Source of the DNA: a virus
IMG/VR virus record: IMGVR_UViG_3300034104_000866
Span: 1 to 20,469 of that record
Reading direction: 5' to 3' (one strand)
DNA: 20,469 nt
Each line of letters begins with the position of its first letter. Within the stretch, counting starts at the first letter, position 1. Below, piece after piece: positions 8,783 through 14,222 of the stretch. The translations under genes and the position numbers were made by a program. Under the pieces are notes generated by a model that ran no database searches, was not told where the DNA came from, and was given only the letters and a program-made list of their open reading frames with translations.

Positions 8783-9235
8783 TTAAATTTTATGATATTT
8801 TTCTTTTGCTTGTAAATATGCGTTTCGTGCTTCTTCTTCAGTATTATAATAACCTAAATAAGTTTTAATTTTATTTATTCTAATATATGAATACCATTTT
8901 TTAGCAACTTTATTAAAATAATACCCTTTAACATTTTTTCTATTCCATTGATTTTGTTGTCGTGTTACTGCTCTTAAATTGCAAATTCTATTGTCATTTC
9001 TAATATTATTAATATGATCAATTTCTATAGGACACTCTTTATTTACCCAGTACCAAGCAAATCTATGGTTTCCTATTGCAAATAATTTATTATTTACATT
9101 AACACTAAACTTCATATATCCGTCTTTTTGAATATAATCAACTTTATTATTAAATCTATTATAAATAATACCAGTTTCTGGATCGTAGGTATAACCACGT
9201 TTAATTGCTAATTCGCATCTTTCTTTTCGTGTCAT
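8783..9235 (-). CDS. HNH homing-type endonuclease with AP2 DNA-binding domain
   Basis: A 150-aa protein when started at the ATG at 9235 (MTRKERCELAIKRGY). The reading frame stays open upstream to 9331, but that part is a structured leader and is not kept. The HNH nuclease covers about residues 55-100: NHRFAWYW, EIDHINN (71-77), CNLRAVTRQQNQWNRK (85-100). The AP2-like domain covers 101-147: KGYYFNKVAKKWYSYI, then KTYLGYYNTEEEARNAY. Free-standing HNH-AP2 enzymes are self-spreading elements in phages. Its very AT-rich coding DNA, own promoter and leader, and position between two operons fit an inserted mobile gene. The target site is unknown. It could also serve as a packaging-associated nuclease, but the AP2 domain favours homing. 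Confidence 0.85.
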   Translation of the reverse strand: MTRKERCELAIKRGYTYDPETGIIYNRFNNKVDYIQKDGYMKFSVNVNNKLFAIGNHRFAWYWVNKECPIEIDHINNIRNDNRICNLRAVTRQQNQWNRKNVKGYYFNKVAKKWYSYIRINKIKTYLGYYNTEEEARNAYLQAKEKYHKI

Positions 9236-9324
9236 AAAATAAAAAAGCCTTAGTGCTTTCAAGGTTGCGGTCTCTACTAACACTAAGGTCTTAAATAAGT
9301 TTCTGAATGTAGCCGCAACCCTAC
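9236..9324 (-). ncRNA. Pseudoknot-capable leader RNA upstream of the HNH gene
   Basis: On the coding strand, GGTTGCGG (9320-9313) pairs perfectly with CCGCAACC (9270-9263), and CCTTAGTG (9288-9281) pairs perfectly with CACTAAGG (9255-9248). The arms interleave (a-b-a'-b'), so the two 8-bp stems would form an H-type pseudoknot. The b stem is followed by CTTTTTT, so it could also act as a terminator with a' in its loop. It begins just after a TATATTTG promoter and ends 12 nt before the HNH ATG. Layout and part of loop 1 (TTCAGAAACTTATTTA) resemble the leader at 12406-12487. Confidence 0.6.
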
Positions 9325-9328
9325 AATA

Positions 9329-9336
9329 CAAATATA
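9329..9336 (-). promoter_or_regulatory. -7 promoter element of the HNH leader
   Basis: TATATTTG on the coding strand (9336-9329), about 9 nt before the first arm of the leader. Upstream is AT-rich without a clear TTTG -33 or the TATATTAAAAA box of promoters A-D, so it would be a different and weaker type. Confidence 0.5.
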
Positions 9337-10835: not shown

Positions 10836-11795
10836 TCAAAAAGGAACATCTTTATTCATCTTTTCGCTAAACGAAAGTAATTCTTTTCCGTTAACTATAT
10901 CGGGTTCAATCAAAGGTAGTTGTTTAGCTGGAAAACTATTTGAAATTGGTTTCGTGTTTCTAATCGGATCAACTGAATTAATTTTAAACCCTAATCCGTT
11001 ATTAAATTCACACAATACTGGTTCATCTAATCTCGTATGCATTCCGCCCGTGTCCATATCCTTAATTTTTTCTACGTTTACCATAGTGTAATACTTCATT
11101 GTTTCGTGTTTTATTAGCCTGTGAATAACAAACATATCATCACATCTATTTAAAAACGCCTTACCGCCTTCTACGTGGTCTTTTAAAGGTGGTTTAAGGT
11201 GCCCTTTCCACATATGCCCGTCTGCATATAAATTACCGCTCCTACCACTTTCGCTATTTGGGTGCGTGTTTATGTAAATTGTCATTCCCGATTCATTAAC
11301 AAATTGCCTTGCTTGATTTAAAAACTGATAATTACCTTCATAAGTCATAGGTCGGTCAAGTCCTGTAAAAGGGTCAATTAATCCAGCATCGCAGTCGCTA
11401 TCTTTAAATAACTTTAAAATATCCGCAGGAGTATAAAGTTTATCGTTAGGTATAAAATTAAAATACTGCTCTAAGTATGTTGCCGTGCTTAATATCTTTG
11501 AATCTTCTATTTCAGTAAACTTTTGCCCTAAGTACATTTGTATCATATCACGCAATATTTGACCTTTTTGATTTTCACCACTCCAAATGCAAAACTTTAA
11601 ATCGTGTTTTACTGCCAACGTCAAAAAATACCAATTAATCCAATAAGTTTTACCTACGTTATCGTGTCCTAAAATAATATTTAGTTGTTTACGTTTAAAC
11701 AAAAGATGATTATCCAAGTCGCAGTTAATGCCGTAACCCTTTTTTATTTTTCCGTGTTTATAGTCAAGTAGGTATTGTGCTGAATCGCCTATCAT
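10836..11795 (-). CDS. RecA-fold replicative helicase-like ATPase (DnaB/RepA type)
   Basis: A 319-aa protein with Walker A GHDNVGKT (43-50), Walker B-like GLIDPF (138-143, D141), a sensor/motif segment YINTHPNSESGR (174-185) and a later GGKAFLNRCDDMFVIHR region. There is no N-terminal primase-binding domain, so it matches the C-terminal motor of DnaB-like or RepA-like phage helicases. It should unwind the replication fork. It is encoded after a DnaD-like initiator with an ATGA overlap (11792-11795), the typical initiator-helicase pair. The C-terminal 40 residues are low-complexity and may contact a partner. It could instead be a helicase loader, but the motif spacing favours the motor itself. 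Confidence 0.75.
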   Translation of the reverse strand: MIGDSAQYLLDYKHGKIKKGYGINCDLDNHLLFKRKQLNIILGHDNVGKTYWINWYFLTLAVKHDLKFCIWSGENQKGQILRDMIQMYLGQKFTEIEDSKILSTATYLEQYFNFIPNDKLYTPADILKLFKDSDCDAGLIDPFTGLDRPMTYEGNYQFLNQARQFVNESGMTIYINTHPNSESGRSGNLYADGHMWKGHLKPPLKDHVEGGKAFLNRCDDMFVIHRLIKHETMKYYTMVNVEKIKDMDTGGMHTRLDEPVLCEFNNGLGFKINSVDPIRNTKPISNSFPAKQLPLIEPDIVNGKELLSFSEKMNKDVPF

Positions 11796-12388
11796 AATCC
11801 AAGTTGTTTGTTAACATATTCTACTAAATGGTCGGTTTCTTCTTTTTGATATTGTTTAGGGTTTCTACTAAGCCAAGTTCTTAATCTTTGAGATATACCA
11901 AATGTTTTTTCTTTTTCAAATCTAAGTTTTTTATCATTCTCACCGTGTTCAGTCCAATAAAAATAAAAGTCGTTTAGCATATCCCTACCATACTCATCTA
12001 AAAAAGGTTTAAGCGCGTCAGCAAATTTTAATTTGCGTTCTTCTATATTATTCTTTATATTTAATACTTTATTATTTACTGCAAGGGTCTCTTTAAGGGT
12101 GTCTTTAAGGGGGTCTTCAAGGGTATTAATGTTAACTTGTTGTTTTTCAATGCGTTTCAATGCGCCTTGTTTACCAAATTCTTTAGCTTGAATTACGATG
12201 TTCATCGTCTTTTTGTAATTATCAAAATATTTTTTTACAATTTTCTTCTTAATTGCAACTTCATTACCCTGATAATACTCGGTAACTGCATAGAGCCATA
12301 AGGAATAATCGGCTATATTATCAAAAAACTCTTTGGCATATTCAAGGTCTTCGATGTTTACCTTTACAAATTCTTTTTTGTTTGTCAT
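11792..12388 (-). CDS. DnaD-like replication initiator / replisome organiser
   Basis: A 198-aa protein. Residues 10-85 are a helical N-terminal domain (YAKEFFDNIADYSLWLYAVT), followed by a variable linker. Residues about 125-175 carry FLDEYGRDMLNDFYFYWTEH and KTFGISQRLRTWLSRNPKQY, a C-terminal pattern of phage replication initiators that ends in a short helix-turn-helix-like segment. It would bind the phage origin and recruit the ATPase encoded next. The linker DNA contains three GGGT/GGTC-like short repeats (ggtctctttaagggtgtcttt), suggesting an A/T- and G-run-rich segment that might hold iterons. That is speculative. Its own leader and promoter lie upstream. Confidence 0.7.
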   Translation of the reverse strand: MTNKKEFVKVNIEDLEYAKEFFDNIADYSLWLYAVTEYYQGNEVAIKKKIVKKYFDNYKKTMNIVIQAKEFGKQGALKRIEKQQVNINTLEDPLKDTLKETLAVNNKVLNIKNNIEERKLKFADALKPFLDEYGRDMLNDFYFYWTEHGENDKKLRFEKEKTFGISQRLRTWLSRNPKQYQKEETDHLVEYVNKQLGL

Positions 12389-12405
12389 GGTTGTTATTTA
12401 AAGCA

Positions 12406-12487
12406 TAACCCCCGAACCGATAGCCACAACCACGAGGCATTTCGCATTCAGGGGTTAATAAAAAAGTCTTCTGATTCATGTGGTTGT
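12406..12487 (-). ncRNA. Pseudoknot-capable leader RNA upstream of the replication initiator
   Basis: On the coding strand, ACAACCAC (12487-12480) pairs with GTGGTTGT (12433-12426), and TAACCCC (12457-12451) pairs with GGGGTTA (12412-12406). The arms interleave (a-b-a'-b') as in the HNH leader, giving 8- and 7-bp stems. Loop 1 contains ATCAGAAGACTTTTTTA, similar to TTCAGAAACTTATTTA in the other leader. It starts about 14 nt after a TATATTTG box and ends 17 nt before the initiator ATG. A 45-codon frame from ATG 12479 crosses it but looks accidental. Confidence 0.55.
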
Positions 12488-12500
12488 AATTTCAGATAGG

Positions 12501-12528
12501 CAAATATAAAAATAATTATTTAATCAAA
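12501..12528 (-). promoter_or_regulatory. Promoter of the replication module
   Basis: A -33-like TTTG (12528-12525), a 16-nt spacer and the -7 element TATATTTG (12508-12501), followed by CC. It matches the Bacteroidota consensus but lacks the TATATTAAAAA box of promoters A-D. It overlaps the last codons of the 38-aa gene upstream. Confidence 0.6.
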
Positions 12529-14162: not shown

Positions 14163-14191
14163 CTAAAAAACCCCTACCGAAGCAAGGGTTT
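14163..14191 (-). terminator. Rho-independent terminator after the lysis block
   Basis: The coding strand has AAACCCTTGC, a UUCG tetraloop, then GTAGGGGTTT: a 10-bp stem (two G-U/U-G pairs) at 14191-14168, ending in six T. It separates the structural/lysis transcript from promoter A. Confidence 0.85.
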
Positions 14192-14222
14192 CTCATTAAC
14201 AATTAAACTATGAATTATGAAA
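14163..14222 (-). ncRNA. Candidate ~60-nt antisense RNA
   Basis: A consensus promoter (14228-14258) lies just upstream and a strong terminator just downstream, leaving about 60 nt with no credible frame. Its single-stranded part contains TTTAATTGTTAAT, the reverse complement of the UTR word ATTAACAATTAAA found after promoter B; ten of those bases (AACAATTAAA) also occur after A, C and D. It could pair with the leaders of all four modules. Equally it could be an inert 3' UTR. Confidence 0.4.

Follow-up and report, generated by a model that had tools for sequence, protein, structure and literature searches.

An apparently new family of kissing-hairpin leader RNAs preceding many genes of viruses that infect Flavobacterium-like bacteria

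We analysed a 20,469-nucleotide (nt) stretch of viral DNA (hereafter, the window), in which a minus-strand open reading frame (ORF) at 8783..9235 encodes a homing-endonuclease-like protein of HNH_3-AP2 architecture (Pfam HNH_3, 2.7e-9; phrog_99, 2.4e-41; the AP2 match falls under its curated cut-off). Upstream of it, on the same strand, lies a compact element at 9324-9241 that we call leader 1. It begins behind the -7 promoter element TATATTTG (9336-9329), of the Bacteroidetes TAnnTTTG type, which predicts a transcription start at 9324. Hairpin 1 (9308..9324) consists of the stem P1, GTAG/CTAC, and the 8-nt loop GGTTGCGG at 9320-9313, and the linker TTCAGAAACTTATTTAAGA (9289..9307) joins it to hairpin 2 (9248..9288), which combines a 10-bp stem P2 (CCTTAGTGTT/AGCACTAAGG), a 3-bp stem P3 (GAG/CTT) and an internal loop of AGTA (9278-9275) facing GAA (9260-9258). 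The 8-nt apical loop of hairpin 2, ACCGCAAC (9271-9264), is complementary to loop 1. Behind hairpin 2 come a C, the U-run TTTTTT (9241..9246), which by sequence makes the hairpin intrinsic-terminator-like, then ATTTT and the HNH-AP2 ATG at 9235; the ATG is 12 nt from the stem end and 5 nt from the U-run.

An earlier, sequence-only reading of this site had described two perfect, interleaved 8-bp stems, one of them followed by a U-run, and this description proved exact on the minus strand: stem a pairs GGTTGCGG (9320-9313) with CCGCAACC (9270-9263), and stem b, interleaved with it, pairs CCTTAGTG (9288-9281) with CACTAAGG (9255-9248) and is followed by C and TTTTTT. The geometry is that of two kissing hairpins rather than of a simple H-type pseudoknot, and hairpin 2 was recovered unaided by RNAfold (-13.4 kcal/mol, z -3.9). 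Given that 0.65 interleaved 8-bp pairs are expected per dinucleotide-shuffled window, the single pair in the window is within chance, and the significance of leader 1 derives from its relatives, namely five same-type sequences and a wider class. The five distinct sequences of the leader 1 type show two compensated pairs in the loop–loop helix (loop pairs GGTTGCGG/CCGCAACC, GGTTACGG/CCGTAACC and ATTGCGG/CCGCAAT). The linker part TTATTTAAGA is kept in 5/5 of them and the U-run in all homologues; CAGAA is not kept, reading TAAAA in most homologues, and in L306 the outer U-A pair of P1, located at -1, is missing.

Leaders of this type precede HNH_3-AP2 genes in the window, L303, L304, L307 and L125, and NUMOD4-HNH_3 genes in L302, L305 and L306, and the spacing from U-run to ATG is always 5 nt before both architectures. 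A fixed bond between the leader and the HNH-AP2 ORF was considered and rejected, because the HNH relatives L126-L144 lack the leader and other HNH genes carry it. Because two HNH architectures have it and HNH relatives elsewhere do without, leaders of the leader 1 type appear to be interchangeable parts placed ahead of free-standing endonuclease genes. The leaderless L126-L144 are close HNH-AP2 relatives inserted at many different gene junctions.

A second minus-strand leader lies at 12407..12496, behind another copy of TATATTTG (12501..12508; predicted start, 12496). It precedes a 198-amino-acid (aa) ORF (11792..12388; phrog_19415) in the position of a replication initiator, before an ATPase gene, like gp07, the 'replication initiation protein' of phage tant8-1. 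Its hairpin 1 has the stem CTGA/TCAG and the loop ACAACCAC (12487-12480); its hairpin 2 has a strong stem, AACCCCTGAA/TTCGGGGGTT, which covaries in L244 (AACCCTCGTA/TACGGGGGTT), and the loop GTGGTTGT (12433-12426). Leader 1 displays every feature of the class (promoter, kissing P1 loop, P2-internal loop-P3 hairpin and nearby ORF start), as does the region 12496-12389, except for the U-run. The second leader belongs to subtype C, which lacks a U-run, and a third copy of its loop-1 sequence, ACAACC (12389..12394), touches the start codon. The sequence-only reading had united the two leaders in one undescribed RNA class on the strength of their geometry and a similar loop 1. Their common membership of a broad class without an Rfam match is borne out; the loop 1 likeness fails as a uniting feature, as CAGAA is mostly TAAAA, and the two leaders are of different subtypes. 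Nor could the loop-1 word CAGAA...ACTT...TTTA serve as a class signature, since it has at least 120 mostly unrelated matches in viral contigs and homologues lack CAGAA. A small peptide ORF over the second leader (MNQKTFLLTPEC...) was dismissed as non-coding, because L250 has no such ATG and the reading frame changes freely among class members. The second leader's loop 2 (GGTTGTGG, 12424-12431) is complementary, with one G-U, to loop 2 of leader 1 (CCGCAACC, 9263-9270), both on the minus strand; cross-talk between the two is possible, and the match could be chance.

Related phages were gathered by protein searches of viral contigs. In front of the 198-aa gene, they carry RNAs of differing sequence and common layout, and descriptor searches then turned up many further RNAs. 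Across uncultured phage contigs and phage 11b we found 94 distinct RNAs of kissing-hairpin architecture with 37 different loop pairs, a count that is conditional on loop pairing because the descriptor demands exact loop–loop complementarity. The unbiased test was a covariance model, R1, built without the loop–loop helix and without the promoter: 31 of its 32 distinct sites have a perfect 6-8 nt kiss together with TAnnTTTG, which stands in place by chance in 2.4% of cases, and the exception is a weak match (E 0.11). Across the window and 20 phage contigs that are nearly complete, the descriptor separated the class cleanly: members scored at least 38 and all else at most 34. At scores of at least 37, 1.1 Mb of other viral contigs yielded class members only, and 2.9 Mb of shuffled sequence yielded one match. 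The sequence-only reading had proposed a search for further examples, whose absence it took to suggest chance; examples turned out to be numerous.

Covariation was assessed in an alignment of 13 subtype A members, counting four helices (P1, P2, P3 and loop–loop). In this alignment 99.7% of cells are paired and 21/28 pairs have changed on both sides, including 5/8 in the loop–loop helix. Double-sided changes fill 86 cells vs 25 in shuffles, none of 500 shuffles reaching as high, and all covariation measures collapse when partners are slid by one base. Conserved internal loops take one of two forms, UGAA/GGAU or AGUA/GAA, the latter resembling the bulged-G (sarcin-ricin) motif. In subtype A (for example, L138 and L172), the RNA core is often an open frame, LKKVIDPVNEREVERSGF, whose frame and start are not kept. 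By eye, one subtype B member appeared to contain a hammerhead-like core (GATGAGTA..CCGAAAG), which was rejected because the core letters misfit and are not conserved in the class. The distinctness of loop pairs within a genome (0 identical among 23 pairs) was set aside as evidence, as a random draw gives it with P = 0.34.

The TAnnTTTG element has been confirmed in F. psychrophilum (PMC9723704), and published spacing puts its G at -5 (PMC6847099). With that spacing, the predicted start falls -1 to +2 nt from the base of hairpin 1 (P1) in 77/90 leaders. An ATG-started ORF follows 90/94 members, at a median of 20 nt (interquartile range 17-24) past the terminator stem, and no TAnnTTTG promoter intervenes between stem and ATG in 90/90. 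A U-run of five or more T is present in 81/94 members; leader 1, with stem and U-run between promoter and gene, has the layout of an intrinsic-terminator attenuator. The downstream ORFs form 35 sequence groups of unrelated proteins, among them replication-initiator-type proteins (DUF6291/Phg_2220_C), ParB-methyltransferases, helicases and HNH endonucleases, as well as GIY-YIG-like proteins recognised by eye only. Because phage genomes are compact, nearness to an ORF is expected in part, and the members without a near ORF (L299, L347 and L302 at 8268) count against a cis-leader reading.

Third copies of loop 1, as seen in the second leader, occur in 18/90 leaders (plus one 5-nt, chance-like match) vs 0.6% in shuffles. 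They are found in subtype C and another subtype, vary together with loops 1 and 2 (GGGCAG, GAGCAG, AGGCAG and ACAACC) and all precede replication-initiator-type genes, as judged by position and sequence. In a further contig (L284/L285), ACGCAACCA occupies loop 1 and recurs ahead of the ATG, and loop 2 carries TGGTTGTGT. For the second leader, computed duplex energies are -12.3 kcal/mol for loop 2 with loop 1 and -10.1 kcal/mol for loop 2 with the start region, the latter duplex extending into the AUG. Leader 1 has no third copy, and in it we found no structure pairing directly with the ribosome site or start codon. On sequence grounds, the arrangement of loop 1, loop 2 and start region is the anatomy of a decoy switch, which we infer to operate as one. 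At the level of sequence, the comparisons establish the structure, the promoter element, the terminator-like end, the fixed place before unrelated ORFs and this three-way agreement.

A gene without another promoter and with a terminator in its way makes attenuation in cis the most economical explanation. We consider it reasonably likely that these elements are cis-acting 5' leader RNAs of a phage-borne class, in which loop pairing would set read-through and, in some subtypes, translation would be controlled as well. The transcript would begin with the base of hairpin 1. Behind the advancing RNA polymerase the two hairpins would fold one after the other, hairpin 1 first, and their loops would then pair. 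Hairpin 2 and the U-run would halt transcription upstream of the start codon, the downstream gene would be made solely from read-through transcripts, and the loop–loop pairing would determine how frequent these are. In subtypes with a third copy, loop 2 would have two possible partners: bound to loop 1, it would leave the start codon accessible; bound to the start region, it would mask the start codon. This choice would add control of translation. Regulation of termination and of loop pairing, as well as the signal behind it, is what we infer from this layout. The sequence-only reading had suggested that the terminator stem could compete with the other stem. The terminator has stood up; the competition is not clear, since both helices are kept by covariation across the class and a single drawing accommodates P2 and the kiss without conflict, so that the data do not demonstrate a 'one or the other' switch. 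The effect of loop–loop pairing may be a stronger terminator, a delayed one or a landing site for a protein. Because subtype C and a few others have no U-run, attenuation is not the mechanism for all.

The elements could be free-standing small RNAs, made compact and stable by the kiss, whose trans targets would be RNAs of the phage or the host, with the gene expressed through leaky read-through. Complete promoter-RNA-terminator units, 5' and 3' ends that both lie inside hairpins, and the lack of an ORF within 90 nt in L299, L347 and L302 speak for such RNAs, but in 90/94 members an ORF begins at a narrowly constrained spacing and has no other promoter, third copies before start codons point to action in cis, and subtype C has no terminator; we regard a small RNA as unlikely. 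We give still less weight to a put-like element, whose nascent RNA binds RNA polymerase, which then ignores the element's own terminator and those further on, as HK022 put RNAs do. HK022 putL and putR are ~70-nt two-hairpin RNAs of early phage transcripts (PMC9378689), and ours are two-hairpin RNAs of ~80 nt that open the transcript immediately downstream of phage promoters, with several copies per genome, put too having two or more per phage. However, put elements are themselves no terminators and the description cited (PMC9378689) mentions no kissing loops, whereas here hairpin 2 bears a U-run (81/94), the loops kiss and each copy sits at the start of one gene.

Many of our leaders precede replication initiators, as does the pT181 attenuator, which is placed before repC. 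In that system, a 5' leader with kissing hairpins ends in an intrinsic terminator (PMC4878617), and an antisense RNA, transcribed from the other strand, makes the leader terminate by kissing it. Attenuation of this type appears very improbable here: both kissing partners lie within one RNA, and TAHHTTTG on the opposite strand occurs in 8/93 leaders (8.6%) vs 9.9% of random windows, on which sequence test, showing no antisense promoter excess in the 93 leaders, antisense RNA was rejected. Chance pairing in A+T-rich phage DNA would suffice for the window's single 8-bp interleaved pair, which is near the chance rate, but the covariation survives shuffle and slide controls and the model and shuffle controls point the same way, leaving chance a negligible probability. 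Cis-acting leader attenuation is the reading we retain, and on sequence grounds the class probably decides the on/off state of the gene behind it. More tentatively, and with slightly less than even confidence, we propose that Bacteroidota phages carry a modular 'promoter + kissing-hairpin terminator' cassette, together with a decoy-loop, three-way switch of the replication initiator. If true, the cassette would be exchangeable among replication, modification, homing-endonuclease and orphan genes; loop 1 would copy the start-codon region, one anti-start loop being shared by decoy and start site, and phage replication would be under a self-contained three-way RNA switch.

As to novelty, the Rfam check that the sequence-only reading had called for matched no known family: Rfam 15 gave no match at the window leaders or at 14 loci spanning the main subtypes, and hits elsewhere were sub-threshold only, on the other strand or upstream (for example, Thr_leader in L364). 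We found no published description of a kissing-hairpin class of this kind in the open-access literature. We regard it as an apparently new RNA class, a large family of folded RNAs that probably works like a leader attenuator. Among known systems, the rep leaders of IncI/IncB plasmids form pseudoknots in which a loop pairs beside the start codon of the replication initiator, the pairing activating expression and an antisense RNA opposing it. Subtypes B and C could likewise pair a loop with start-adjacent sequence, but here loop 1 of the same RNA copies the start-proximal sequence. Structured RNA ahead of homing endonuclease genes, which we see before two HNH architectures, also has a precedent in the hairpins before the T4 homing endonucleases, segB, I-TevI and Aeh1 mobE, which are thought to limit expression (PMC2988022). 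In T4, the hairpins cover the ribosome site of long transcripts, whose translation is released at late times (PMC2988022), whereas here the promoter lies ahead of the complete structure and a U-run comes after it.

Among isolated phages, the nearest that encode relatives of the 120-aa protein and of the terminase have Flavobacterium as their host, so the virus of the window probably infects a Flavobacterium-like bacterium. A class member (CGGGCAGG/CCTGCCCG) occupies positions 33,621-33,729, an unannotated gap before PHG11b_62, in the isolated Flavobacterium phage 11b. For prophages, a single protein scan and a narrow RNA pattern in 84,980 genomes yielded no class member, a scope that leaves room for prophage copies. 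To our knowledge, little is known of gene timing in Bacteroidota phages. A leader class that stands before 35 gene groups and includes an example from the sequenced isolate 11b would offer a general way to study that control. The agreement of decoy, loop and start region makes the proposed RNA switch testable, and the wide choice of natural loop pairs is a ready supply of candidate orthogonal regulators.

L299 and L347 (GTTCAGG) and L302 at 8268 (GTCAGA) represent a short variant that has the kiss but no P3; no ORF lies within 90 nt, and a conserved ACATAGnAGTTGTATAAG-like stretch comes next. Such a variant could be an independent RNA, or it could be situated close to an origin. Elsewhere in the window, a strong ordinary intrinsic terminator, GAAACCC...GGGGTTTTTT, occupies 14164-14195 on the minus strand and has only sub-threshold istR-like Rfam scores.
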